A DNA stretch of 64,000 bases from Planctomycetota bacterium (GTDB lineage: Bacteria > Planctomycetota > Planctomycetia > Pirellulales > PNKZ01), in contig JAFEBQ010000016.1 in NCBI GenBank assembly GCA_018242585.1, positions 1-64,000 of the forward strand, in the 5' to 3' direction. Made by a program: the position numbers and the translations under genes. Below, one piece after another: positions 1-44,332 of this stretch (position 1 is the stretch's first letter; each line of letters opens with the position of its first letter). The notes beneath the pieces were generated by a model that saw nothing but the letters and a program-made list of their open reading frames with translations, ran no database searches and was not told the origin of the DNA.

Positions 1-172
1 CTGTCGAGCCGCTTGTCACGCCGCTAATAGCAACTGGTGAACCGAGCAAAGCGTGCGGGCTTGCTAGCGATGCTGCCTCGGCAAACTTGGCGCAATCGTC
101 AAAGTTTCACAGTCGATCCCCTCTTGCGGTGGCCGATAAACCGGGACGATTGTCCATCCTCAGCGGATCGCC

Positions 173-2875
173 ATGCGCACCTTACGCGTTGCTATCATCG
201 CCCTGCCATTAGCCCTGTTCACGGGCTGTGCAAACCAGACGCGCAAACTCGTCTCGGTTGGCGATAACTATCGCGCGGCGCAAACGCACTTTGAAAACGC
301 CTTGGGGCCGGTGCAGCTTCCGCAGGTCTACAACGGCCCGCCGCCGGCCGACCCCGCGCAGCCTCCGCCAACGCTGCCGAGCGATACGCCGCCGACATTA
401 CAAGTGGGACGTCCCGACGCCTTTGAGGCCTGGCAGGTCTCGCTCGACGATGTGTTGCGAACTTCGATGGCCAATTCGGACATCGTCCGCGTGCTCAATT
501 CGACCAGCGTCACGGCTGGCTCGACCAGCTCGTACGATCCGCAATCGGCCGAGGCCAACGCCCGGGCCGCCTTGGCAGCGTTCGACCCGTACCTGACCTC
601 AGCGGCCTACTACAGTCGGATCAACCAACCAAGCGGCGAGTTCTTCGGTCCTGGCATTCCGGAAGCGACCCGCTACAACACGGCGGGGGTCACTTCGGCG
701 CTGGTCAAGCCGCTGGTCACCGGCGGCCAGGCGAGCATTGCGTACAACCCGCCGGTCGGCTACCAGTACTACCCCAACGGTGTGGGCAGCTTTTTGAACC
801 CGTTGAACACGGCCAACGTCGAATATGCCTTTCGCCAGCCGTTGTTGCGCGGCTTTGGCACCAACGTGAACAAGGCGCCGATCCGCATCGCCCAACTTCA
901 GGCCGATCAATCGAAATGGGACTTCAAGGCCAACTTGTTGGCGTCGATCCGCAGCGTCTGTGAAGCCTATTGGAGCTTGCAGGCGGCCCACGTCGCCTTG
1001 CAGACGCTCGATGAGATCGTGCCACTGATGGAAGAAGTCGTCCACCTTGAAGAGGAGCGACTCAAAGCCGAACGGAGTATCGTGGCGAACGTGGCCCGCG
1101 CGCGGGCCAATTTGCACAATGTCCGCCAGCAGCGTTTGCTGGCCCAGTCGACGGTCTATGAGCGTGAATTGCGGTTGCGCAACCTGATTGGCCTGCCGCC
1201 CCGCGACGGCCGGTACTTTGTGCCAACGGCCGCGCCGGTGAAGGCGCCGATCACCATTGACTCGCGCACCGTGGTAGCCAACGCGCTGGCCTATCGTCCT
1301 GACTTGATTCGCCAGCGGCTGAACATTCGCACCCGCGAGCTGCAATTGCTCGTCGCCAAGAACGCTTACCTGCCGCAACTCGACGCGACGGGCTTGTACC
1401 GGATGAACGGCATTGGCGCAACGCAGGGCCAAGCCATTGACCAGGTTTTTTCCAGCCAGTTCGCCGATTACCAGACCGGCATCTTGCTGAACGTGCCGCT
1501 TGGACGCCGGGCCGCCACGGCTGGCGTGCAGAACGCCGAGATCATGCTCGCGCGCGAGCGGGCCATGATGCGGCAGGCCGTCCACTCCGCGGCACACAGC
1601 CTGGGAGACATCATCCGGCAGATGGAGTTCTCGTACCGGCAATACCAGGAAGCCGAGGCCCGCTGGCGCGAGAACACCGTCTGGCTGGAGAACGAGCGGT
1701 TCCGCTTCCAGAACCCGCCACCGGCCGTCGATGGACAGGACTTGTTGGCGCTGATGTTGAACAACTATCTGGCGGCCATGCAATCGCAGTACACCGCCGC
1801 CACGGACGCGGCCACCTTGCTCGCTCAATACAACACGCAGCTTGTCCGGCTCGACGAAGCGATGGGAACCTTGGCCATGTCGTTCAACATCGCGTTGGAA
1901 GGGGACGCCGAGCTCTCGCCACGTCAGGCGGCCTTGCTGGCGGCCGACGTCTACAAGTTTGGCCTGCCGGTCGGACCCTATTACACCGACATCCCGGCCA
2001 AGCCCTCGACGCGGATTCCGATTCCACCGAACGCCATGCCCGGGCCGACGACGCAAGGTTACGACCTGCCGCCTGGCGACGTGGGGGCTGGCGCCACTCA
2101 AGCGTCGACAACGACTCCAGCCGCGCCGACACCTGCCCAGAAGGAACCCGGGCTGACGGTAAATGGCCTTCGCCGGCCGCCTGACTTAAACGAGGGCTTA
2201 GACTCGCTGCCAGTCTTACCCGAAGCTGTAGCCAATCCGAATGCGCCACGCATTCACGGGCTGCGCAACCCGACGGACTTCGGTAATATAGAACCGCCCG
2301 CACCGGTGAACGTCGCCCCCGACGCCAACAGCGTGCCTCAGATCAATGGTCTGCGTCCGCCGACACAACAGACACTTCCCGAGCCAGTTCTCCCCGCGCC
2401 AGTCGCGCCACCAGCCGCAAATGGTCCTCGCGTCAATGGGCTCTATGCACCCATCGAAACCGAGCCGGTGAGTGCGCCTCCGCCAGCGTCCACCAGCAAC
2501 CAAGGCCCCCGCGTTAACGGACTGCGCGCCGCGGCCGAGCCAGCGCCATTCGCCTCGTCAATCGACGCATCGCCGTTGGGGCCAGCGACGGCCCGCGGCC
2601 CGCGTGTGAATGGCCTACGAACGGCTTCGCTGGCCGGTGACGTGATCAGCCGCCCGCTGGCCACTCCTGCTGCGCCAGCGAACGTGAGCGGCAACCGCAT
2701 CCACGGGCTGCGATCAATCGAGCCGAGTGAGCCCGCCGACAGCCCGGAAACATCCCCAGCCGTCCGGCCCAGCGGCGCGCGGATCAACGGTCTGCGCGGG
2801 ATGCCGACGAACTATGACGAGCCGGCGGCCATTGCGCCACGCGGCCCAACTGACGGGCATAGTTATCTGAGGTAG
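173..2875 (+). CDS. TolC-family outer membrane efflux lipoprotein with C-terminal NGLR repeats
   Basis: Probable outer-membrane channel of a tripartite export system. The N-terminus is a lipoprotein signal (hydrophobic run, then LFTGC with Cys19 as the lipid-modified residue). Roughly residues 130-640 have the alternating helical and small/hydrophobic character of the outer membrane efflux (OEP/TolC) family, including a long charged helix with LEEERLKAERS near residues 300-320. After about residue 655 the protein becomes a Pro/Ala-rich tail holding eight copies of a short motif, [V/I][N/H]GLR (one copy ends in Y), spaced 27-31 residues apart. TolC proteins are usually 450-550 aa, so the tail adds over 200 residues. 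The start at 173 gives the complete signal peptide. A convergent gene for an HlyD-type adaptor lies downstream, which fits a shared export role, but no ABC or RND pump is next to it. The tail function is unknown. Confidence 0.85.
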   Translation: MRTLRVAIIALPLALFTGCANQTRKLVSVGDNYRAAQTHFENALGPVQLPQVYNGPPPADPAQPPPTLPSDTPPTLQVGRPDAFEAWQVSLDDVLRTSMANSDIVRVLNSTSVTAGSTSSYDPQSAEANARAALAAFDPYLTSAAYYSRINQPSGEFFGPGIPEATRYNTAGVTSALVKPLVTGGQASIAYNPPVGYQYYPNGVGSFLNPLNTANVEYAFRQPLLRGFGTNVNKAPIRIAQLQADQSKWDFKANLLASIRSVCEAYWSLQAAHVALQTLDEIVPLMEEVVHLEEERLKAERSIVANVARARANLHNVRQQRLLAQSTVYERELRLRNLIGLPPRDGRYFVPTAAPVKAPITIDSRTVVANALAYRPDLIRQRLNIRTRELQLLVAKNAYLPQLDATGLYRMNGIGATQGQAIDQVFSSQFADYQTGILLNVPLGRRAATAGVQNAEIMLARERAMMRQAVHSAAHSLGDIIRQMEFSYRQYQEAEARWRENTVWLENERFRFQNPPPAVDGQDLLALMLNNYLAAMQSQYTAATDAATLLAQYNTQLVRLDEAMGTLAMSFNIALEGDAELSPRQAALLAADVYKFGLPVGPYYTDIPAKPSTRIPIPPNAMPGPTTQGYDLPPGDVGAGATQASTTTPAAPTPAQKEPGLTVNGLRRPPDLNEGLDSLPVLPEAVANPNAPRIHGLRNPTDFGNIEPPAPVNVAPDANSVPQINGLRPPTQQTLPEPVLPAPVAPPAANGPRVNGLYAPIETEPVSAPPPASTSNQGPRVNGLRAAAEPAPFASSIDASPLGPATARGPRVNGLRTASLAGDVISRPLATPAAPANVSGNRIHGLRSIEPSEPADSPETSPAVRPSGARINGLRGMPTNYDEPAAIAPRGPTDGHSYLR

Positions 2876-2935
2876 CGCTAAGCCGGCTCGTGCGCGGTAG
2901 GCAGCATTCGTCAGTGTCATTTGCCACAACAACGA

Positions 2936-2970
2936 AGCAGCCCCAGGGGAGGTGAAACCCTGGGGCTGCT
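2936..2970. terminator. Bidirectional terminator-like hairpin between convergent genes
   Basis: A perfect 13-bp inverted repeat (AGCAGCCCCAGGG at 2936-2948 and its complement at 2958-2970) with a 9-base loop lies between the stops of the TolC-like gene and the convergent M50/HlyD gene. There is no long T run, but the position and stem strength suit a terminator shared by both strands. Confidence 0.65.
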
Positions 2971-3000
2971 CGCTTTCGCGGACGACTGTGCGGCGGACGT

Positions 3001-5433
3001 TTACCACCAGAACTCGGTGCGGAAGTAACGGACGGCCCGCTCGCAAGCGATGTTGCCGAGCGATTCCTTGCCGCGGAAGATGCGGCCCATGCCCGTCATG
3101 CCAGCCAGCAAGTCTTCGTCACCGTGGTGCAGGCGACAGTAGACGGTGATCGTCCCTTGCGGAGCCCCTTCGACCGTGTTGGCACGCGGGGCAACCCGTT
3201 CGACCGTGGCCAGGAAGGTGCGGAACGGCAGGGCGCGAGCCTTGAGTTCGACATCCTGGCCCGGCTCGACGCCGGTCACGTCCTGCTCAGCCAGGGCAAT
3301 TTCGGCTTCGAGGCCGGTCGAGTCTTCGACCACGCAGATCAAGGCGCCTTTCTCCAGGTACTGGCCGATCTTTTCCTTCATGCGAGCCGTGGTGATCAGG
3401 CCCTTGATCGGGCTGTTGACCGCCAGCTTGGCGCGGGTGTCGGTCAAGAACTTCAGCTCTTCTTCCAGGCGAGCCAGACGAGCCTTCTCGGCGTCGATTT
3501 CTTCCGGACGGGTGCCGACTTCCAGCAGCTTGAGCGCCATTTCAGTGTCGGCCAATTCCTTGGTGCGACCGGCCAACGCGGCGCCCGAGTCGGTGGTGCC
3601 CACCGCTTCGCGAGCGCGCTTCTGGGCACGAACCTGGTCGAGTTGCAACTGGGCGATGTCCGCCTTCTTCTTCTCGGCCAGATACTGCTGACCGGCCATC
3701 GCACCACGTTCGTACAGCATCTTGGCTTGGGCCAGGGACTGCAGCGAGTAGCTGTGCTCGGCCTGGAACTGGGCAATCTGGCCTTCCAGGCGAACGAGTT
3801 CTTCGTTCAAGCTCAGCTTGGCGCGATGCAGATCCTGCTCGGCCAGATCGCGCCAGGCCTTGACGCGTTCAACCTTCAAGCGGGCTTCGCGAACTTCCTC
3901 CTTGCGCGGGCCAGCCAGCAGCTTCTTGAGATTTGCCTGTGATTCGGTGATCTGGGCGTACTTCTGGGTGATCTGGCTTTCCAGGTCGGGAATCTCGAGG
4001 CGGACCAGCGTGGCGCCGGCGTTGATCTTGTCTCCCTCCTCACAGTTCACTTCACGCAGGAAGCCAGCCACCATGGCCCGCACTTCCACACGCTGAGCTG
4101 GCCGCACCTGAAAATTGCCCGAGCTGCGGTTTTCAAAGCTCAGACCAATCATGGCCGCGGCCACGGCCGCCAGACCAACGCCCCAGGTCGCCGTACGAAG
4201 CTTGCGATTCTTCAACATTTTGATCACCTCACCTGCAAAGAGTCCGCGAAACAGTCGTGTCAACACCATATATGCCAACCAGGATGCTCCGAGGATGCCG
4301 ACCCATCCCCAACGAGCCCCCAGGAACTTGAACAAGCCGAGCAACATCGCGTCGAGGAACACCACCGAGAAGGTCCAGGTGATGAGCCCGTAGATCAACA
4401 GCAGCCGGCCGGAGGCCACGGCGGCGGGGCGCTGGGCGCCCCACAGGAACCAACGCAGCCAGGCGGTGCGGTACTCGCGAGCCTGCTTCCGCAAGTTCGG
4501 AACCTGGCACCAGTCGCTCAACAGGTAGTAACCGTCGAGCTTCATCAGCGGATTGAAGTTGAACAGCGTCCGCGTGCCGCAGACGGTGATGATCACCCAG
4601 GCCAGAAAGTTCACCGGGCTGCCGGGCAACGTCACCCGCCAGACGAACACGCCGACCGCCCACAAGCACAGGTCCAAGTAAGCGCCGGCCGCGGTGATCA
4701 GCAACCGCTTCCAGCGTTCGGGAATGATCCAGGCGTCCGAAACATTGCAGTAAAAGCAAGGCGTGAAGAACATCACCAGCACGCCCAGTTCGTGGACTTC
4801 GCCGCCGTAGTGCTTGCAGGTCAGGCCGTGAGCAAACTCGTGCAGCAGCGTGACCGCGACGATCGTTAACCAGATCATCACAGCCGTTTCCCACCGCAGA
4901 TTGCGCGTTAGGTCGGCCGTGAGTTGCGTATGGTTTTGCCAGGCGACCATGCCGGCCAGCCCGATCGTCACCAGGCTCAGCAGCAAGAAGCCGCGTGTCC
5001 AGACGAACCGCACCTGCGGTTCCAGCCAGTTGAACAGCGTGTCGGGATCGAAGACGCTGTACCGGAAGTTCAGAATGTGCTGGCTCTTCTTGCCCGTCGG
5101 CGTGGTGACGTCTTCGTCATCGTCGCCAGCATTCGCCGGGGTGGCCTCAGCCTGTGAATTGGCCAGCAGGCCCTGCTTGCCGACCAGCGTGATGAAGTCG
5201 TTCAGCTCTTCGCGCGACAGCGGTTCGGCGAACTGCTGGGCAAAGGCCGCGCGAACTTCGCGGCCCGACTTGTTGCCGTCGAGTTGCAGCAACAGAAAGT
5301 ATTCGAACTCGCCCAGCCGGTGGTACGTGCCCAGCCGGCGGTGCTTGACGACGTATTCGCCATTGGCACTGAACGGCTTGACGACCAGGTCTGGGTGGAT
5401 CGTCGGCAGCGACGATCCGGAAACGGTACACAT
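3001..5433 (-). CDS. M50-type membrane peptidase fused to an HlyD-like adaptor, with PqqD-like N-terminus
   Basis: About 810 aa. The start at 5433 is preceded by AGGGAGA at good spacing; the frame is open further upstream but without comparable support. Residues about 10-100 resemble a PqqD-like winged-helix domain. Then come several membrane segments with the M50 zinc signature HEFAH (about 198-202) and the second motif LMKLDGYYLLSDW (about 296-308). The C-terminal 350 residues form a biotin/lipoyl-like barrel (VAGFLREVNCEEGDKINAG), a long coiled-coil hairpin and a beta-barrel typical of HlyD/membrane-fusion adaptors. Known relatives in planctomycetes carry the same fusion. It probably sits in the inner membrane with the adaptor in the periplasm and may contact the convergently encoded TolC-like protein. 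Whether the peptidase centre cleaves anything or is only structural cannot be judged. Confidence 0.85.
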   Translation of the reverse strand: MCTVSGSSLPTIHPDLVVKPFSANGEYVVKHRRLGTYHRLGEFEYFLLLQLDGNKSGREVRAAFAQQFAEPLSREELNDFITLVGKQGLLANSQAEATPANAGDDDEDVTTPTGKKSQHILNFRYSVFDPDTLFNWLEPQVRFVWTRGFLLLSLVTIGLAGMVAWQNHTQLTADLTRNLRWETAVMIWLTIVAVTLLHEFAHGLTCKHYGGEVHELGVLVMFFTPCFYCNVSDAWIIPERWKRLLITAAGAYLDLCLWAVGVFVWRVTLPGSPVNFLAWVIITVCGTRTLFNFNPLMKLDGYYLLSDWCQVPNLRKQAREYRTAWLRWFLWGAQRPAAVASGRLLLIYGLITWTFSVVFLDAMLLGLFKFLGARWGWVGILGASWLAYMVLTRLFRGLFAGEVIKMLKNRKLRTATWGVGLAAVAAAMIGLSFENRSSGNFQVRPAQRVEVRAMVAGFLREVNCEEGDKINAGATLVRLEIPDLESQITQKYAQITESQANLKKLLAGPRKEEVREARLKVERVKAWRDLAEQDLHRAKLSLNEELVRLEGQIAQFQAEHSYSLQSLAQAKMLYERGAMAGQQYLAEKKKADIAQLQLDQVRAQKRAREAVGTTDSGAALAGRTKELADTEMALKLLEVGTRPEEIDAEKARLARLEEELKFLTDTRAKLAVNSPIKGLITTARMKEKIGQYLEKGALICVVEDSTGLEAEIALAEQDVTGVEPGQDVELKARALPFRTFLATVERVAPRANTVEGAPQGTITVYCRLHHGDEDLLAGMTGMGRIFRGKESLGNIACERAVRYFRTEFWW

Positions 5434-5706
5434 GAAGCCATCTCTCCCTGCGAAGTTGAGACGCTGCGTGAACATCAGGGAGAAAGAACACATTTCGTGC
5501 CCGGTGAGTGCGAGTTCAGTTGATTCGCAGCTAAGTCTCAATAGGGTTGGGACTTCCAGTCGTTCCTGAGAAAGCGTGGCAAATCCTCGGTGTTTACTTT
5601 TTGCATCACTACGCTGCCCCAATGATGCTTTCCATCTGCACGCTTGATTAAGCCTGTTGTCCAATAGTCCCACGCCTTTCTTACTCACCCACCGCATGGC
5701 ATCGGC

Positions 5707-7203
5707 ATGAAGCGTTTTCTAGAGTCAGCGATCTCTCGGTTGTTGATGACGCTCGTCGTGGTCGGCGTGGCGACGACGGTGATGGCGAAGCAGCCCAACA
5801 TCTTGTGGCTGGTCGGTGAAAACCTCAGCCATGACCTGGGCTGCTATGGGGCTGGGCACGTTCACACGCCGAATCTCGATCGCTTGGCCACCGAAGGGGT
5901 GCGATTCACGCGCGCGTTTGCCACGAACCCGGCGTGCGCTCCCAGCCGTTCCGCCTTCTTTACCGGAATGTACCAGACGACCATCGACGCACACGCCATG
6001 CGGTCTCATCGCCACGACGACTTCTGCTTGCCGGCCGGCGTGCGACCGATCACCCAGCGGTTGCGCGATGTCGGCTACTTCACGGCCAACATCAAGACCG
6101 CCGGTGGGCAGCGCGTCGGGACCGGCAAGCTCGACTTGAACTACGTCAACGAAGGCCCGATCTACAACGATCGCTCCGACGAGTGGGAGACGCTGAAGTC
6201 GCGCCAGCCGTTCTTTGCCGTAGTGAACGCCGAAGAATCGGAATACGACATCTACGACCGCCAGAGCGCCGCGAAAGAGCGCGTCGAATGGGTCGGCGAG
6301 CGCGAACATGTGCTCTACGCCAAGCCTGACGAGGTCACGCCGCCGCCGTATTACCCCGATCATAGAGTCGTGCGCGAAGAGTGGGCGCGCTACTTGAACT
6401 CGGTCTCGGGCATGGACGCCCGGTTTGGCAAGGTATTGTCGCAACTGAAGGCCGACGGGCTTGAAGACGACACGATTGTCATCTTCATGGGTGACAACGG
6501 TCGCTTGGAGCCGCGCGGCATTCACTGGTGCTATGACAGCGGGCTGCGCGTGCCGCTGATCATCCGCTGGCCGAAGAAGGTTGCCGCGCCGCCGCAGTTT
6601 CGCCCCGGCACGGTGGACGAACGCATCGTCAGCTTGATCGACGTGACGGCCACCACCATTGCCGTGGCTGGCATCGAACGCCCGGCGGCAATGCAAGGCC
6701 GCGTTTTCTTGGGCGAGCGCGCCGATCCGCCGCGCCCGTTCGCGTTTGCGGCGCGCGACCGGATCGACGAAACGTCGCAGCGCATCCGCTCGGTGCATGA
6801 CGGGCGGTATCACTACCTTCGCACGTTTTCAACCGGCCCCACGTTCGCTTCCTTGAATCGCTACAAGGAAAAATGCTTCCCCATCATGGGTGTGATGCGT
6901 GAGCTGCACGCCCACGGTCAGTTGCAGGGCTTTCCCTTGGAACTGATGCAGCGAACCGGCCCCTGTGAAGAGTTGTACGACACACAGCAAGATCCCCACG
7001 AGGTGCATAACTTGCTGTCGTCGTCACGGCCGGAACATCAGCAGGCCCTGGCGCGACTGCGGCCGGCGCTCGACGCCTGGATTGTCGAAAGCGGCGATCG
7101 TGGCGCCATCCCCGAGCCCGCGTCGGTCGTGGCCGAGGCGGCCGCCGAGATGGACCGCTGGTTCGGCACGCCGGCGTGGTATCGGAACAGCGTCAAAAAT
7201 TGA
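5707..7203 (+). CDS. Secreted formylglycine-dependent sulfatase
   Basis: Arylsulfatase-type hydrolase that removes sulfate esters, likely from sulfated polysaccharides, outside the cytoplasm. The N-terminus is a Sec signal (hydrophobic core to about residue 27, VMA before KQPNILWLVGE). The sulfatase signature CAPSR at residues 77-81 gives Cys77, the residue converted to formylglycine. A second conserved block, FMGDNGRLEPRG, supplies metal-binding Asp/Asn. The length (498 aa) is normal for the family. It is divergent from the M50/HlyD gene and followed by a sugar isomerase and a DUF1080 hydrolase on the same strand, so these may act together on carbohydrates. Its exact substrate cannot be read from sequence. 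No sulfatase-maturing enzyme is in the window. Confidence 0.93.
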   Translation: MKRFLESAISRLLMTLVVVGVATTVMAKQPNILWLVGENLSHDLGCYGAGHVHTPNLDRLATEGVRFTRAFATNPACAPSRSAFFTGMYQTTIDAHAMRSHRHDDFCLPAGVRPITQRLRDVGYFTANIKTAGGQRVGTGKLDLNYVNEGPIYNDRSDEWETLKSRQPFFAVVNAEESEYDIYDRQSAAKERVEWVGEREHVLYAKPDEVTPPPYYPDHRVVREEWARYLNSVSGMDARFGKVLSQLKADGLEDDTIVIFMGDNGRLEPRGIHWCYDSGLRVPLIIRWPKKVAAPPQFRPGTVDERIVSLIDVTATTIAVAGIERPAAMQGRVFLGERADPPRPFAFAARDRIDETSQRIRSVHDGRYHYLRTFSTGPTFASLNRYKEKCFPIMGVMRELHAHGQLQGFPLELMQRTGPCEELYDTQQDPHEVHNLLSSSRPEHQQALARLRPALDAWIVESGDRGAIPEPASVVAEAAAEMDRWFGTPAWYRNSVKN

Positions 7204-7289
7204 CGAAGCGCCTTGACTCCAGGGTGTGTGAATCACAGCTTGTGGGTGTGCCCGTCGTCCAACCTCAAACCCTTTCATCGAGCGATGAC

Positions 7290-8210
7290 ATGCAACTTGG
7301 CTTTGTAACCGCGATCTTAGCGGAGTTGAGTTTTGAAGAAGTGCTGCGCTTCGCGGCCGACGAAGGCTTTGACTGCGTCGAGGTGATGTGCTGGCCGGTG
7401 GGCAAGGCCGAGCGCAAGTACGCCGGCGTGACGCACATCGACGTGAATCAGCTTTCGCCGGCGCGCGTCGACGACATCGGCGGGTTATGCGACAAGTACA
7501 AGGTCGGCATCTCGGCGTTGGGTTACTATCCCAACCCGCTGGCGGCCGATCCGGCCGAAGCGGCCGCGGCGCTCGAACATCTGCGCAAGGTGATTGCCGC
7601 CGCCCCGCGTTTGGGGTTGAAGAACGTCAACACGTTTATCGGCAACGACCATCGGCAGAGCGTCGAGGCCAACTTTGCCCGGTTCCGCGAAGTGTGGCCC
7701 GACGTGATTCAATGGGCCGAAGCCGCCGGCGTGTTCATCGGCATCGAGAACTGCCCCATGTTGTTCTCCGCCGACGAATGGCCCGGCGGGAAGAATCTGG
7801 CCAGATCTCCGGCCATCTGGCGGAGGATGTTCGAGGCGATTCCGTCGCCGCACCTGGGCTTGAACTACGACCCCTCGCACCTGGTGCTGCAGATGATGGA
7901 CTATGTCGGGCCGATCTACGAATTCCGCGACCGACTGTTCCACGCCCACGCCAAGGATATGAAAATCGACCGTGGCCGGCTCAATGATTTGGGCGCGTGG
8001 GCGACCGACGTCCGACCGCATTGGAGTGTCCCCAAGATTCCCGGCCTGGGAGACGTGAACTGGGCGGCCTGGATTTCGGCCTTGAGCGATGTGGATTATC
8101 GTGGACCCGTGTGCATTGAGGTCGAGGATGGCGCGTTCGCCGCCGACCTTGAAGCTCGTAAACGATCGCTGCGAATCAGCCGCAACGTGCTGCGACCGCT
8201 GATCGGATGA
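7290..8210 (+). CDS. Sugar phosphate isomerase/epimerase (xylose isomerase-like TIM barrel)
   Basis: Cytoplasmic AP-endonuclease-2/xylose-isomerase-like TIM barrel of 306 aa. The start at 7290 (MQLGFVTAILAELSFEEVL) is where family homology begins; an upstream in-frame extension has no family character. Candidate metal-binding positions are spread as in the family: a Glu in IGIENCPM, Asp/His in NYDPSHL, His in FHAHAKDM and a C-terminal Glu in CIEVEDGAF. Such proteins interconvert sugars or inositols, and the planctomycete members are often near sulfatases and oxidoreductases. It lies 86 bases after the sulfatase and 97 before the DUF1080 gene, same strand. The specific substrate is unknown. 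Confidence 0.88.
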   Translation: MQLGFVTAILAELSFEEVLRFAADEGFDCVEVMCWPVGKAERKYAGVTHIDVNQLSPARVDDIGGLCDKYKVGISALGYYPNPLAADPAEAAAALEHLRKVIAAAPRLGLKNVNTFIGNDHRQSVEANFARFREVWPDVIQWAEAAGVFIGIENCPMLFSADEWPGGKNLARSPAIWRRMFEAIPSPHLGLNYDPSHLVLQMMDYVGPIYEFRDRLFHAHAKDMKIDRGRLNDLGAWATDVRPHWSVPKIPGLGDVNWAAWISALSDVDYRGPVCIEVEDGAFAADLEARKRSLRISRNVLRPLIG

Positions 8211-8307
8211 AAACCGCGCGGCGGCAGCGTATGCTAAGGCACGCCGAAGTTGTTCCCGCATCGACAATTCAATCACTTACTCCTGTAACCCCAAAAGCCA
8301 CCACGCC

Positions 8308-9015
8308 ATGAAAACCTTTCTGACCACTGTTTCGTTGCTTGCCTTGGCGCTCGCTGCCGCCGACGAGAACTCTTTCTTCAACGGCCGTGATCTCAGCACC
8401 TGGAAGGAACCGCTGGGAACCTGGTCGGTTGTCGGCGACGTCAGCCTGGACAGCAGCGCCCCGAAAGGCTTTGTGGTGAAGCCGGGCACCGGCGTGATGC
8501 TCAACAGTCCGGCTGGCAAGACGGTGAACCTGACCAGCGACGCCGAGCACGGTGATGCCATCATCCACGTCGAGTTCAACGTCCCCCAGGGCTCGAACAG
8601 CGGCATCTACCTGCAAGGGAACTACGAAGTGCAGGTGTTCGACAGCTATGGCAAGGACGTCATCGGCGTGCATGACTGTGGGGCCATCTACGAACGCTGG
8701 GATCCCGCCCGCGGCAAGGGGAAGGAAGGCTATGAAGGGCACGCGGCGAAGGTGAACGCCTGCAAGGCGCCGGGCGAATGGCAGACCTTTGACATTACCT
8801 TCCGGGCACCGCGGTTCGACGCCGCGGGCAAGAAAACGGAAAACGCGAGGTTCCTCAAGGTGGTTCACAACGGCCAGGTCATTCACGAAAACGTCGAGAT
8901 GAACGGCCCGACTCGCGGCGCGAAGGTTCCCGCCGAGGCCCCTCTCGGCCCGTTGGTGATCCAAGGGGACCACGGCCCGGTGGCCTATCGCAATCTGACG
9001 GTCACCAAGCCATAA
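8308..9015 (+). CDS. Secreted DUF1080 (3-keto-disaccharide hydrolase-type) protein
   Basis: A signal peptide (MKTFLTTVSLLALALAAADE) is followed by a single DUF1080 domain of about 210 residues. Family landmarks are FFNGRDLSTWKEP at the start of the domain, GSNSGIYLQGNYEVQVFDSY in the middle, and GPLVIQGDHGPVAYRNLTV at the end. The fold is a concanavalin-like beta sandwich; some members hydrolyse 3-keto-disaccharides, while others are probably only carbohydrate binding. It is the third carbohydrate-related gene in a row. Planctomycete genomes carry many paralogues, so the role cannot be assigned more closely. Confidence 0.88.
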   Translation: MKTFLTTVSLLALALAAADENSFFNGRDLSTWKEPLGTWSVVGDVSLDSSAPKGFVVKPGTGVMLNSPAGKTVNLTSDAEHGDAIIHVEFNVPQGSNSGIYLQGNYEVQVFDSYGKDVIGVHDCGAIYERWDPARGKGKEGYEGHAAKVNACKAPGEWQTFDITFRAPRFDAAGKKTENARFLKVVHNGQVIHENVEMNGPTRGAKVPAEAPLGPLVIQGDHGPVAYRNLTVTKP

Positions 9016-9189
9016 GCGAAGTGGCCCTATGGCGTCTCGCCTGCCAATTGCCCGGTTTTCCGCTGTGGCTGGAAACGCTCCGTGCGCCGCCGGGGCGTGC
9101 CGCGTCATGCGAGACCTGACATTTCCCCTAAAAACCTGCCATTGAGGGCAAATCGGGCCGTCGGACTGGCTAGACCGCTCTGACGTAAA

Positions 9190-9198
9190 TGTTATGAT
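9190..9198 (+). promoter_or_regulatory. Candidate extended -10 promoter upstream of infA
   Basis: TGTTATGAT reads as an extended -10 (TGn plus TATGAT at 9193-9198) about 155 bases before infA. No good -35 is seen, as is common for extended -10 promoters. The remainder of the 338-base gap 9016-9353 shows no gene. Confidence 0.4.
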
Positions 9199-9353
9199 AA
9201 GCAGGCGTTATCGTCGCGGCTCCTCGTTGCGTCCCGACTTGCTGCGGTCCAACGGTCCACGGCAGTCGGTCCCGTAACGTAAGTTTGCTGAGTTGCCCGA
9301 AGGGGCGAGCCTCGATCCTTCCTTAGCTATCGTGCTGTCCGCTGGAGTTGTTT

Positions 9354-9575
9354 GTGCCCGAAAAAGAAGAAGCGTTAGAAGTCGAAGGTACGGTCACCCA
9401 AGCGCTGGCGAACACGCGCTTTCGGGTCACCATCGAAGGGGGTCACGAAGTGATCGCCCACGTTGCCGGCCGCATGCGCCGCAACTTCATCCGCATTGTC
9501 CCTGGCGACAAGGTCCGGGTCGAACTCTCCCCCTATGACCTGACCAAGGGGCGGATCACCTTCCGCGAGCGTTAA
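9354..9575 (+). CDS. infA: Translation initiation factor IF-1
   Basis: An S1-like OB-fold protein that binds the ribosomal A site during initiation. At 73 aa it is close to the usual 72, and it matches the family along its whole length: [48 protein letters not shown] and [10 protein letters not shown] chose the GTG at 9354 because GGAG ends six bases before it; a TTG two codons upstream would put that site directly against the start. The gene stands alone rather than in a ribosomal protein cluster. Confidence 0.96.
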
Positions 9576-10069
9576 ACCGCTGGCTCGCTCTTGCGCTTGA
9601 CGCATCTTGGATTCGCCACGTCTCGGCAAACCAATCGAAAGCTGCTAGCGCGTTGCTGCGCGCATTGATCGGCGCTCCGTGACACAAGCGCGGGTAACGA
9701 CTTCGTTTCTTTCCCACGAACGGAGCTGTCGACAGTTTGGATCGGCCGTCCAATGTTCACGCTCCATTAACGGCCGGCAATCGGCCCCATTTTCTTGAAA
9801 CGCGCCGCGTCGACAGCGGGTATTTTCCTGGAACTCTCGGGGGCGGCGCGGTAAGTTGTGCGGGCTTTTATCCCCCGTTTGGGCGCTGGTCGGGCCGTTG
9901 GCCCAGCCAGCGCTAGATAAGTTTGATGCGCGCGGCGCGTGTGCTCGTCGAACCATTGCCGGTTCATGCCGCGCTTGATCCTATCGTCACCTATGAGGAG
10001 CGAGTTGTGCTTCAACAGAGTACTTTCAAAACTGGGCAAACTTTGAACATCGAGCGGACTCTGAACACC
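9576..10069. other. Intergenic region without recognisable gene
   Basis: 494 bases between infA and the next secreted protein. The frame of the downstream gene stays open back to 9923, but the signal peptide begins only at 10070. I see no structured RNA, repeat or convincing promoter here. Confidence 0.5.
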
Positions 10070-11749
10070 ATGCGTCAGCTGAAAACCTTTGTCACCGGTT
10101 GCTTGTCGATCGCCTTGCTGCTGGCGTCGAGTGTCGTCGCTCGGGCCGAGCAAAAGCCGCTCGTCGTCGTCTCGTTCGCGGGCTATGAAGCCCTGCGCGG
10201 CGACGTCGATTTTCTGGGAAAGTCCGCGGACTATCCCGAGTTAGTGCAAAGCCTCGATGGCATTGTCGCCATGTTCACCCAGATGCAGGGGCTGCAAGGG
10301 CTCGATAAGACCAAGCCTTGGGGCTATGTCCTGACGGCCGAAGAAGGGGGCTTTCCGCAGTTCGGCTTCCTGCCGGTCACCAACTTGGACAAGTTGCTCG
10401 GCGCGTTGGTCGGGATGGTCGGCCAGCCGCAAGACGTCGGCGACGGCGTGAAAAGCGTCACGGTCAACGGCATGCCCATCTTCTTGAAGCCGAAGGGGAA
10501 GCTGGTGTTCGTGGCCTCGAACTCGGACGACCTGAACAAGGTGCCCGAAGATCCGATGGCCTGGCTGGGCAATCTGCCCAAGGAGTACGATCTGGCCGTG
10601 CAGGCCAATGTCCAGAATGTGCCGCCGCAGTTGCGGCAGATGTTCATGGATCAGATCAAGCTCGGCCTGCAGCAAGGTCTGAAGAAGGGTGACGACGAAA
10701 GCGACGAGCAGTTCAAGGCTCGCGGCAAGCTGGCCGAAGAGCAGATGGCGCAGCTCGATCGAGTGGCGAACGAGTTGGAGCAGGTCACGGTTGGGTACTC
10801 GCTCAGCCCTGAGAAGAAAAACGCCACGATCGATTTGGTGTTAACGGCTGTGTCCGGCTCGTCGCTGGCCAAGGAACTGGCGGCCCAGCCGAACACCGGC
10901 GCCAGCAAGTTCGCTGGCTTCCTCACCTCCGACGTCCTGGCCAACGGTCACTGGAACGCGGTCTCGTCGGAAGAATCGCGCAAGCAGTCGGCCGCCACGT
11001 TTGAATCGCTCCGCCAAAGCGCCGAGCAATCGATCGACGCTTCGGACGAGCTGAGCGATGAAGAAAAGCCGGACGTCAAGGAACTGGTCGGCGAATTGAT
11101 CGCGGTGGCCAAGGCCACGGCGGAAAAGGGGTTGGCCAACGGCGGCTTTGTCATCACCGGCGAAGGTCCGTTCACGATCGTTGCCGGCGGCGCCGTGGCC
11201 GAGGGCAACCGGCTGGACAAGGCCATTCGCAAGGCCGTGGCTCGGGCCAAGAAGAAAGGCAAGCTCGGCGACGATGTCGAGATCAGCCTTGATGACGAGG
11301 AATACAAGGGGATCAAGTTTCACACGCTCGACGCCCCCTGGCCCGAGTCGGACGACGACGACACGGCTGAACAAATCGAGGAGTTGCTCGGCGACGAAAT
11401 CAACATCGTCGTCGGCGTCAGCGACAACGCGGTCTACTTCGCGTTGGGCGAAGACGGCTCGGACGCCATCAAGAAAGTGATCGACGGTTCGGCTTCGGCC
11501 CCTTCGCCCAAGCTGCCGGCGCAAGTCACGGTCGCTCTGACCCCGATCCTCGATTACCTCGCCGATCAGGATGAAGACAACAAGCAGTTGGCGCAGATCG
11601 CCAAGGAGCTTGACGAGTTCGGCAAGGATAAGATCAACCTCACGGTTGACTATGTGCCGAACGGCCAGCGGGTCCGTTACGAGCTGCAGGAAGGCGTGCT
11701 CCGGGCCATCGGCCTGGGGGCCAAGGCCGCCCAGCAGCGTGGGCAATAA
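10070..11749 (+). CDS. Secreted protein of unknown function, acidic, planctomycete type
   Basis: A 559-aa exported protein. Translation is placed at 10070 because MRQLKTFVTGCLSIALLLAS with cleavage after ARA makes a complete Sec signal; the upstream in-frame part does not look like protein. The mature part is rich in Asp, Glu and Lys, with stretches such as GDDESDEQFKARGKLAEEQM and PESDDDDTAEQIEELLGDE, and alternates helical and beta segments with no cysteines or catalytic motif that I recognise. A terminator-like hairpin with a T run follows. I do not recognise a family with known activity. Confidence 0.75.
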   Translation: MRQLKTFVTGCLSIALLLASSVVARAEQKPLVVVSFAGYEALRGDVDFLGKSADYPELVQSLDGIVAMFTQMQGLQGLDKTKPWGYVLTAEEGGFPQFGFLPVTNLDKLLGALVGMVGQPQDVGDGVKSVTVNGMPIFLKPKGKLVFVASNSDDLNKVPEDPMAWLGNLPKEYDLAVQANVQNVPPQLRQMFMDQIKLGLQQGLKKGDDESDEQFKARGKLAEEQMAQLDRVANELEQVTVGYSLSPEKKNATIDLVLTAVSGSSLAKELAAQPNTGASKFAGFLTSDVLANGHWNAVSSEESRKQSAATFESLRQSAEQSIDASDELSDEEKPDVKELVGELIAVAKATAEKGLANGGFVITGEGPFTIVAGGAVAEGNRLDKAIRKAVARAKKKGKLGDDVEISLDDEEYKGIKFHTLDAPWPESDDDDTAEQIEELLGDEINIVVGVSDNAVYFALGEDGSDAIKKVIDGSASAPSPKLPAQVTVALTPILDYLADQDEDNKQLAQIAKELDEFGKDKINLTVDYVPNGQRVRYELQEGVLRAIGLGAKAAQQRGQ

Positions 11750-11784
11750 CCTCGCCGGCGGCTCGCACTGACCGAGCGAACTAC

Positions 11785-11835
11785 GGCGTCGGTCGCCAGC
11801 GGCTCCCTGCAAGCCGCGGCGGCCGACGCCTTTTT
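11785..11835 (+). terminator. Rho-independent terminator after the secreted protein gene
   Basis: GGCGTCGG (11785-11792) pairs with CCGACGCC (11823-11830), followed at once by five T. The long loop itself contains GC-rich pairing. It lies 36 bases after the stop codon. Confidence 0.6.
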
Positions 11836-11862
11836 GCTGCGCGCGCGTTGGCATGTTATGGT
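11834..11862 (+). promoter_or_regulatory. Candidate promoter for nadB
   Basis: TTGCTG (11834-11839), a 17-base spacer, then TATGGT (11857-11862) preceded by TGT as an extended -10. It partly overlaps the T run of the upstream terminator and would give nadB a leader of about 220 bases that includes the paired-hairpin repeat. Confidence 0.4.
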
Positions 11863-11912
11863 GGGGCAGTGAGATTGCTCGGAGCCCCGAGTTCCCATGT
11901 TCCATTGCGAAC

Positions 11913-11998
11913 GGGTGCCATGCTCAAGGCCTTAAGCCTTGAGCATGTCGGTACACGCTTCGCATGCTCAAGCCTGAGGGGCTTGAGCATGGCACCCC
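11913..11998. repeat. Paired-hairpin (REPIN-like) palindromic repeat
   Basis: Two hairpins of the same design lie side by side: CATGCTCAAGGC with its complement around a 5-base loop (11919-11947), and CATGCTCAAGCC with its complement around a 5-base loop (11963-11991). The outer ends also pair: GGGTGCCATGCTCAAG at 11913-11928 with its complement at 11982-11997. Two inverted REP units forming one element is the REPIN layout. Confidence 0.8.
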
Positions 11999-12092
11999 AG
12001 CGGTGTGGTGAACATTGAGCGACGAGCCATGACGGCTCTTCAGTGTTGCCAACCGACGAATATCGTCTTCAGCCCTTACAGAAGCACTTGCC

Positions 12093-41827: not shown

Positions 41828-44332
41828 ATGCGATTGACCTTGCGAACCCTGTTGGCCTACTTGGACCAGAACCTCGAGCCGGGCGATTCCCAGGAGATTG
41901 CCAGCAAGGTCAAGGAGAGCGAGTTCGCCACGACGCTGGTGCATCGCATCCGCGACGTCACGCGCCGACTCCGGCTGGGCGCGCCCAAGGTCGAAGGTCG
42001 CGGCTTGGCGCTCGACGCCAACACGGTGGCCGAGTACCTGGACAATTCACTCTCGGCCGAGCGTGTGCCCGACTTCGAGCGCATCTGCCTGGAGTCGGAC
42101 ATTCACCTGGCCGAGGTCGCCGCTTCGCACCAGGTATTGGCCTTGGTGCTCGACAAGCCGGCCGAGATCGAGCCGGCGATTCGCCAGCGGATGTACGCCT
42201 TGCCGTCGCAGGCGGCCGCCCATGACGCCGCCGGTAGTGCCGCTCCCGCCGAGGCTGACAGCGCTTCTTCAGCCGCCGGTGGCGAAGCTGCGTCGTCGAT
42301 CGCCGCGTCCGTCGAGCACGAAGCCGAAGCGCCGCGCCGCGTGGCGCCGACTCCGCCGCCGATTCCGCCGCGCGACACGCCGCGCGTGCCGGCCGTGGCG
42401 ACCGACACCGCGCCAGTGCCCGAGACGGTTCCCAGCGAGGCGGATTTGCGTCCCGCGCGCCGACAGATCGAGGTGCCTGAATACCTGCGCGAGTCCACTC
42501 CGCGGCGTGGTTCCAGGGGCCGGCTGATCGCGGCGTTACTGTTGTTCATCGTGGTCGGAGCGGCGATCGGCGTGCTGCTCAACGGCGAGCAGTTGCAGTC
42601 GTGGCTTGCCAGTTCAAACCCGCCGACCGAGGGAACCGATTTGCCGACAGCCACCATGACGGGCCAGACCACGTCGAAGGACTTGAATGTCGTCCCCGGC
42701 CTGGACGACGCGGGCAAGATACCCGGCGGCTTGCAGCAGCCCGCCTCGATGCCGACGACGCCAGCAGCCACGGCACCGACGACAGCAGTGCCCACACCAG
42801 CAGCGCCAACTTCTCCGACCGCACCGGCCGCTAATGTGCCAACCGCGCCGACGCCCGGCACGCCGACAGTGGCACCTGCCGCCGGGACACCCGCCGCGCC
42901 GGGAACAGTCGCCCAGCCAGCGTCTTTGCCACCCGGAACCGCGCCGCCAGTAGTGGTGCCTGGTGCCGCACCTGCCGCGCCCGGTACAGCTCCGACAGCG
43001 CCGGGCATGGCGCCGAATCCACCGCCGGTGGCCACCACCCCGCCGACGGGTATCCCAGGCACAACGCCCGCAATCCCGGGGACGCCAGCCACGCCGGGCA
43101 GCGCCATTCCTGCGCCACCTGCGCCGGGGATTGGACCGGTGGCGATGAATGCCGGCACGCCGGGCGTCGCGTCGGGAGCAGCGGCCCCCGTGGCTCAGCC
43201 CGTGGTGGTTCCCCCGGCTGCGCCAGAGGGGGTCGGTCAGTACATGAATGAATCGGACCTGCTGGTGCGCGCGATCAATGGGCCGTTGCAGTGGGAACGC
43301 ATGTTGGGCAAGGCCACGGTGCTCAGCGGCAATCGGCTGCTCTGTTTGCCGAGCTACAGCGCCAAGCTGGCCATGACGGCCGGCGTGAGAGTCGACTTGC
43401 TGGGTGGTGCCGAAGTCAAGTTGTTGCCCAACGATCCGCAGAAAGTGCCTGGCGTGGAACTGGTCGAAGGACGGATCATGGTGCTTGAGGCTGCTCGACC
43501 CGAGACGGCGCTGAACGTGGTGATCAATGGTCAACCTGGGAGGCTCGTGCTGGCCGACCAGAACTCGGCGGCGGCGCTGGATGTCGATCGGTTGCACCTG
43601 GAAGGAACCGATCCCGAGAAGCAAGCTGGTCCGGTCGAAGCGGTACTCTACGCCTTTACCGGTCAGATTTCCTGGACCGACGCGACGGGCAAGACCGAGA
43701 AGCTGGCCGCGCCGGTGCGGCGTGTGTTAATGGGGTCGTCGACCACCCAGCAGGCGGGCATGCCTCGTTGGTTGACCAGCGAAGAACGCAGCGCCACGCA
43801 AATACGGGCCAGCGCCGAGCTGCCCAAGTTGCTGCCCCAGGATCGTCCGATCAGCCAGGCGCTGCAGGAAGAAGCGGCCACCGGTCGCAAGCAAGAGAAC
43901 GTGTTGCTCTCGCTCCAAGCCTTGGCCCGGTTGGACGATTACAACCCGCTGGTCTTGGCGCTCAAGGAGCGGACCCAGCGGTCTCTTTGGCCAGAAGTGA
44001 TCGACGCTTTGCGCGACGCGATCGGTCGCAGCCCGCAACACGCCGAACAGGTGCGCAAGGCGTTCGAGAAGCACTACGGCGCCAAGGGGCTCGAGCTGTA
44101 CCGGATGTTGTGGGGCTACACGCCGGACCAGATTCAGTCGGGGGGCGGCATGCAATTGGTCCGCTACCTGGACCACGAGGATCTCGAGTTCCGGGTGCTC
44201 AGCATTGGCACGCTCAAGCGGATGGCCGGGACCGATTTGTTCTACCGGCCGGACGACACGGTGGCGAAGCGCCAGCCGTTTGTCGTGAAGTGGAAGCAAA
44301 AGATCGAAACCGGCCAATTGTTCTCGCGCTAA
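41828..44332 (+). CDS. Single-pass membrane protein with FecR-like domain and Pro/Thr-rich linker
   Basis: An 834-aa protein. The N-terminal 130 residues are helical and cytoplasmic, with a phrase typical of planctomycete proteins (TLRTLLAYLDQNLEPGDSQE, AEYLDNSLSAERVPDFERIC). One membrane helix lies at about residues 235-252 (LIAALLLFIVVGAAIGVLL). Then comes a roughly 190-residue linker of Ala/Pro/Thr/Gly (APTSPTAPAANVPTAPTPGT), probably crossing the cell wall. The region about 475-640 resembles a FecR-type beta fold (GVRVDLLGGAEVKLLPNDPQ). The C-terminal part is helical. Planctomycete-specific in appearance; a sensor linking envelope state to the cytoplasm is possible but unproven. Confidence 0.75.
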   Translation: MRLTLRTLLAYLDQNLEPGDSQEIASKVKESEFATTLVHRIRDVTRRLRLGAPKVEGRGLALDANTVAEYLDNSLSAERVPDFERICLESDIHLAEVAASHQVLALVLDKPAEIEPAIRQRMYALPSQAAAHDAAGSAAPAEADSASSAAGGEAASSIAASVEHEAEAPRRVAPTPPPIPPRDTPRVPAVATDTAPVPETVPSEADLRPARRQIEVPEYLRESTPRRGSRGRLIAALLLFIVVGAAIGVLLNGEQLQSWLASSNPPTEGTDLPTATMTGQTTSKDLNVVPGLDDAGKIPGGLQQPASMPTTPAATAPTTAVPTPAAPTSPTAPAANVPTAPTPGTPTVAPAAGTPAAPGTVAQPASLPPGTAPPVVVPGAAPAAPGTAPTAPGMAPNPPPVATTPPTGIPGTTPAIPGTPATPGSAIPAPPAPGIGPVAMNAGTPGVASGAAAPVAQPVVVPPAAPEGVGQYMNESDLLVRAINGPLQWERMLGKATVLSGNRLLCLPSYSAKLAMTAGVRVDLLGGAEVKLLPNDPQKVPGVELVEGRIMVLEAARPETALNVVINGQPGRLVLADQNSAAALDVDRLHLEGTDPEKQAGPVEAVLYAFTGQISWTDATGKTEKLAAPVRRVLMGSSTTQQAGMPRWLTSEERSATQIRASAELPKLLPQDRPISQALQEEAATGRKQENVLLSLQALARLDDYNPLVLALKERTQRSLWPEVIDALRDAIGRSPQHAEQVRKAFEKHYGAKGLELYRMLWGYTPDQIQSGGGMQLVRYLDHEDLEFRVLSIGTLKRMAGTDLFYRPDDTVAKRQPFVVKWKQKIETGQLFSR

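Follow-up and report, generated by a model that had tools for sequence, protein, structure and literature searches.

A TolC/OprM-type outer-membrane channel of the Pirellulales with an eight-copy [VI][NH]GL[RY] array in its C-terminal tail: a possible docking strip

We analysed 64,000 nucleotides of a planctomycete of the order Pirellulales (assembly GCA_018242585.1, contig JAFEBQ010000016.1, positions 1 to 64,000, here called the window). Near its start lies the gene of a channel protein with a long C-terminal tail, P0001, and next to it the convergent gene of an adaptor-like protein, P0002. The features are listed in Table 1.

Table 1. Coordinates of the features at the locus and of three TolC homologues from other genomes (positions are those of the window, or of the stretch named in brackets).
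Feature	Position	Strand	Basis
P0001, OEP/TolC-type outer-membrane efflux protein with long C-terminal tail, 900 aa	173..2875	+	ORF, Pfam, AlphaFold, Foldseek
Channel core (approximately residues 86-580) with beta-barrel strands and long alpha-barrel helices	428..1912	+	predicted structure
Pro/Ala-rich tail, residues 594-900, predicted disordered	1952..2872	+	pLDDT, composition
Motif copy 1, VNGLR	2159..2173	+	
Motif copy 2, IHGLR	2252..2266	+	
Motif copy 3, INGLR	2342..2356	+	
Motif copy 4, VNGLY (variant)	2432..2446	+	
Motif copy 5, VNGLR	2513..2527	+	
Motif copy 6, VNGLR	2606..2620	+	
Motif copy 7, IHGLR	2699..2713	+	
Motif copy 8, INGLR	2783..2797	+	
P0002, PqqD-like (presumed)/M50-like/HlyD adaptor fusion, convergent	3001..5697	-	ORF, Pfam, synteny
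G201 TolC homologue (L159)	2593-6048	-	
G110 TolC homologue (L161)	4791-8012	-	
G098 TolC homologue (L160)	4480-8400	-	

The Pfam family OEP (PF02321) was detected in two stretches of P0001 (3.7e-22, 79.5 bits, cut-off 22), which bears out an initial annotation that had placed the tail on an outer-membrane channel. We examined an AlphaFold model of P0001, built from 39 aligned homologues. The core was predicted with pLDDT mostly over 80-90 and comprised helices 230-298, 304-339, 446-513 and 524-564 and strand pairs 140-152/166-180 and 402-415/431-440. When the model was compared with solved structures by Foldseek, it matched TolC (E 3.4e-17), VceC, CmeC and OprM (E 1e-17 to 1e-13 for this set) as well as CusC, and among 44 PDB matches at E <= 0.001 all those inspected were outer-membrane factors. 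By its predicted structure, the core is a TolC/OprM-type channel. Its scores fell below the NCBIfam cut-offs for type I secretion TolC (TIGR01844; 42.5 vs 225) and NodT (TIGR01845; 26.5 vs 210), and by these models P0001 is assigned to neither subfamily. The N-terminus is probably a lipoprotein signal with an atypical -3 residue: behind a hydrophobic stretch it carries GC at residues 18-19, shared with the orthologue in genome G004, and position -3 is Phe, not Leu, Val or Ile. P0001 resembles TolC, OprM, VceC and CmeC in its two OEP stretches, in its channel helices and strand pairs and in the GC at the position expected of a lipoprotein. It differs from them in its low identity to solved channels (about 13-17%) and in its tail of 300 residues, predicted to be disordered and bearing the motif eight times; their structures have no such tail.

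The tail was predicted with pLDDT mostly below 50 and was without secondary structure past its first ten residues. There are 48 Pro and 38 Ala in the last 260 residues of the protein. The motif [VI][NH]GL[RY] was found eight times, at residues 663, 694, 724, 754, 781, 812, 843 and 871 (window 2159-2797), with spacings of 31, 30, 30, 27, 31, 31 and 28 residues. The initial annotation had described an eight-fold [V/I][N/H]GLR tail at 2152-2800 with a period of 27-31 residues in a Pro/Ala-rich context, and we recovered all of this, with the addition that copy 4 ends in Y; in the remaining seven of eight copies the final residue is R. Arginine also directly precedes the motif in six of the eight copies, therefore the fuller consensus is G-P-R-[VI]-[NH]-G-L-R. 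Altogether, 13 of the 19 Arg of the tail sit within or just ahead of the motifs. The G+C content at third codon positions is 0.81 over residues 1-640 and drops to 0.67 for the tail (window 2093-2872).

When the tail was shuffled 20,000 times, the motif appeared at most once per shuffle, compared with eight copies observed, and chance or low complexity was thereby ruled out as the origin of the array. A BLOSUM-based repeat score, which was used at first, placed P0001 at the top (z 6.0) and left the arrays of other channels hidden. This score was dominated by proline matches, therefore we used a composition-aware repeat score, computed for 19 selected tails, in which P0001 reached z = 21.4 against shuffles. 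Its array was also the strongest among window ORFs of at least 300 aa.

We then compared the codons of the copies. Across all pairwise comparisons of the copies, differences in the five codons of the motif affected 77% of the synonymous sites and 15% of the nonsynonymous sites (pS 0.77, pN 0.15), while for the five codons just downstream of the motif both values were about 0.69; this contrast is descriptive, taken between copies within one gene and without a formal test. On this contrast the motif is kept at the protein level. Selection on the protein thus maintains the copies, which is what a binding motif would lead one to expect, and to this extent the role in binding initially suggested for the array gained support. 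Just one genome is known to carry the array, so selection is read here from copies in one gene and not from species, and the likeness among duplicated copies may partly reflect shared ancestry. The saturation of the synonymous sites, for its part, speaks against recent copying. The scrambling of the motif codons at synonymous positions ruled out a DNA-level repeat as the explanation; an RNA element was rejected on the same ground and since Rfam gave no match across the window. The spacers are weakly similar to each other (490 vs 433 +/- 23 for shuffled spacers; 4 of 300 shuffles as high), and this residual similarity is compatible with the array having arisen through duplication of a unit of roughly 90 bases.

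A model of the eight units recovered the complete set in P0001 and gave no convincing match in the rest of its genome. With the same model the array was not found in a sample of 396 genomes of the order or in an overlapping sample of 392 genomes of the phylum. All matches outside P0001 were single copies, and those inspected resembled shadow reading frames or very short ORFs. The motif array was also missing from the syntenic orthologues of P0001 in G004, G212 and G330 (44-45% identical), whose TolC cores are 48%, 44% and 44% identical to that of P0001, respectively. Their tails are Pro-rich, variable in length and free of the motif; this includes the closest homologue, from G004, a member of the same family (about 44-48% identical). 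A search for closer relatives in named genomes gave one truncated relative (L087) without a long tail. Thus, the orthologues and the two samples ruled out the array as a trait of the whole TolC family. As judged from these comparisons, in which the one genome with the array is the sole member of its genus, it is a lineage-specific feature. The initial annotation had proposed a search of TolC homologues for the motif, and had held that its reading would fail if the repeat were general in unrelated low-complexity proteins and not conserved among TolC homologues. Conservation was indeed lacking, in the three orthologues as in the 396 genomes of the order, but the motif did not occur in unrelated proteins beyond the single copies.

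The convergently encoded adaptor mentioned in the initial annotation was confirmed as P0002. Its longest ORF is given in Table 1, and the likely start is nearer 5433. The protein has a start which we take to be PqqD-like and an M50-like site (HEFAH at 286-290, LDGY at 390), joined to a HlyD-type adaptor. We compared its protease part with NF041824, the daptide biosynthesis intramembrane protease (3.3e-64, 217.4 bits, cut-off 300); on this score it is akin to the daptide-type protease and not a member of that family. Orthologues of P0002 are convergent with or adjacent to the TolC orthologue in L062, L163 and L164, and are 56% (G004), 47% (G212) and 46% (G330) identical to P0002. Both orthologues occur together in these three genomes, therefore the gene pair is conserved and the array is not. 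Since the adaptor orthologues adjoin motif-free TolC orthologues, the motif is not needed for the pairing in general. The genome of P0001 holds four further paralogues of the M50-like/HlyD fusion. In L062 (G004, 1-12001), the TolC gene has as neighbours another M50-HlyD fusion and additional ORFs for HlyD-like adaptors, and from this gene content the system may use several adaptors.

Long tails were also observed in a second group of TolC homologues, from G201, G110, G098 and G134 (tails of 360-560 residues). Their cores are 31-34% identical to P0001 and 45-58% identical to G201, with 58% between G201 and G110. The tails of G201, G110 and G098 (480-560 residues) are Pro/Gln-rich. We counted L-x-x-P-x-S-[VL] nine and seven times in G201 and G110, respectively (0.3 expected), the two tails being otherwise different, and three times in G134; in G098 we counted nine LQQP, its repeated motif being noted more fully as LQQPxLAPHK. 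These arrays on a distant TolC group are new in the present analysis. The LxxPxSV and LQQP motifs were spotted by eye before testing, so the shuffle values for G201 and G098 are not fully independent; the stronger evidence is that the motif of G201 recurs in G110. A model of LxxPxSV applied to the G201 and G110 genomes gave the TolC tail alone at useful scores; both arrays tested genome-wide, this one and that of P0001, were therefore confined to the TolC tail. When the cores were placed in a tree, P0001 and the G201-G098 group fell into different sub-clades with array-free channels between them, and the fork between the larger groups was moderately supported. The two sets of arrays thus likely arose separately, to judge from the tree. 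The channels from G201, G110 and G098 share with P0001 the channel type (31-33% identical) and a Pro-rich tail with a repeated short motif, but their motifs are different and irregularly spaced. We did not find an M50-HlyD gene near these three TolC genes in the stretches examined (L159, L161, L160).

The initial annotation knew of no TolC with such a tail. We likewise did not find the motif described, but a TolC-type channel with a repetitive tail has been published, namely Bucl8 of Burkholderia with its collagen-like (Gly-Ala-Ser)n tail (PMC7682875), and such proteins are therefore already known. In the open-access literature on repeat tails of TolC we found nothing beyond Bucl8. The spaced-motif architecture and the [VI][NH]GL[RY] motif were not found described there, which is no proof of novelty. 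In Bucl8, as in P0001, a long C-terminal region made of repeats follows the channel core. The P0001 tail differs in being Pro/Ala-rich with a spaced five-residue motif and in being expected in the periplasm; a run of Gly-X-Y triplets was sought in its sequence and none was found. The C-termini of TolC and OprM lie in the periplasm, by the variable equatorial domain; the C-terminal tail of OprM has a role in recruiting partners, and in AatA export depends on the C-terminal elongation region (PMC8277102). A similar part is proposed below for the P0001 tail, although the OprM truncations concern about 20 residues with no repeats reported there (PMC8277102), whereas the P0001 tail has 300 residues with repeats.

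On balance, we lean slightly towards the array being a lineage-specific, multivalent periplasmic docking tail on a TolC/OprM-type duct that works with P0002. P0001 would be the outer-membrane exit duct, paired with P0002 as membrane-fusion protein. Its tail would leave the channel at the periplasmic equatorial belt as a flexible strip with eight G-P-R-[VI]-[NH]-G-L-R copies about 30 residues apart, and a trimer would put about 24 copies on show. The array would most likely have arisen by repeated duplication of the roughly 90-base unit, after which the Pro/Ala spacers drifted and the motif was kept. Each copy probably docks weakly, with avidity, on one periplasmic or envelope partner, and the docking would recruit or tether this partner at the channel. 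We infer the periplasmic location, the trimer and the docking; the location follows from the topology of the family, and the authors of Bucl8 put the Bucl8 tail outside the cell. The remainder of the P0001 genome yielded neither a binding domain nor a shared motif. Contact of the equatorial domain with the wall has been proposed, and next to this domain TolC is bound by a lipoprotein partner; this partner in E. coli, YbjP, was reported only in 2026 (PMC13082787). How outer-membrane channels connect with partners in the envelope is a question still under study, and a tail with many copies of a short motif would be an unusual and easily tested route to partner recruitment.

Direct binding of the motif to the peptidoglycan wall, or to another polymer of the envelope, could instead anchor the channel with no protein partner, which we regard as unlikely. 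The belt where the tail is expected to exit has been placed near the wall (PMC13082787), and many weak sites together with the Arg gathered at the motifs (13 of 19) would suit a charged polymer. However, we saw no resemblance to a known wall-binding domain, and the strict G-L-R with N/H fits a shaped pocket better than charge alone. The entirely different motifs of the related channels (L-x-x-P-x-S-V, LQQP) would be odd for one conserved polymer, therefore a protein partner is favoured. We give similarly little credit to the tail being a spacer and the array a functionless duplication relic in a low-complexity region. The orthologue tails are indeed motif-free, Pro-rich and variable in length, and tail repeats are gained and lost, but a relic would lose motif and spacers together, and here the spacers show about 0.7 differences per site against a pN of 0.15 in the motif.

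A surface-exposed extension which binds something outside the cell, as proposed for Bucl8, is in our opinion rather improbable. The repetitive tail of Bucl8 was modelled as crossing to the outside and its recombinant form binds a ligand (PMC7682875), but in TolC and OprM the chain is known to end in the periplasm (PMC8277102) and P0001 is without the collagen-like Gly-X-Y run. We hardly credit the possibility that the tail is a multi-copy precursor cut into repeated short peptides, with the M50-type site of P0002 as one processing enzyme. Evenly spaced, conserved short units are like those of such precursors, and the protease part is related to NF041824 (217 bits vs cut-off 300). However, the tail of an outer-membrane protein, if periplasmic, would be out of reach for an intramembrane protease, P0002 is also conserved beside TolC proteins without the array, and there is no conserved cleavage signature outside the motif.

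With regard to the docking tail, the different arrays on related channels point to a fast-evolving surface for interaction and not to filler. A broader and speculative reading, to which we attach modest weight, is that TolC-type channels of the order repeatedly evolve disordered multi-copy docking tails with lineage-specific motifs, so that in each lineage the multivalent tail would wire the channel to a partner of its own.

Elsewhere in the window, a protein of 834 aa without a Pfam family is encoded at 41828-44332 (+ strand); it has one membrane segment, and its linker is rich in Pro, Ala and Thr and contains PAAPGT-like repeats.
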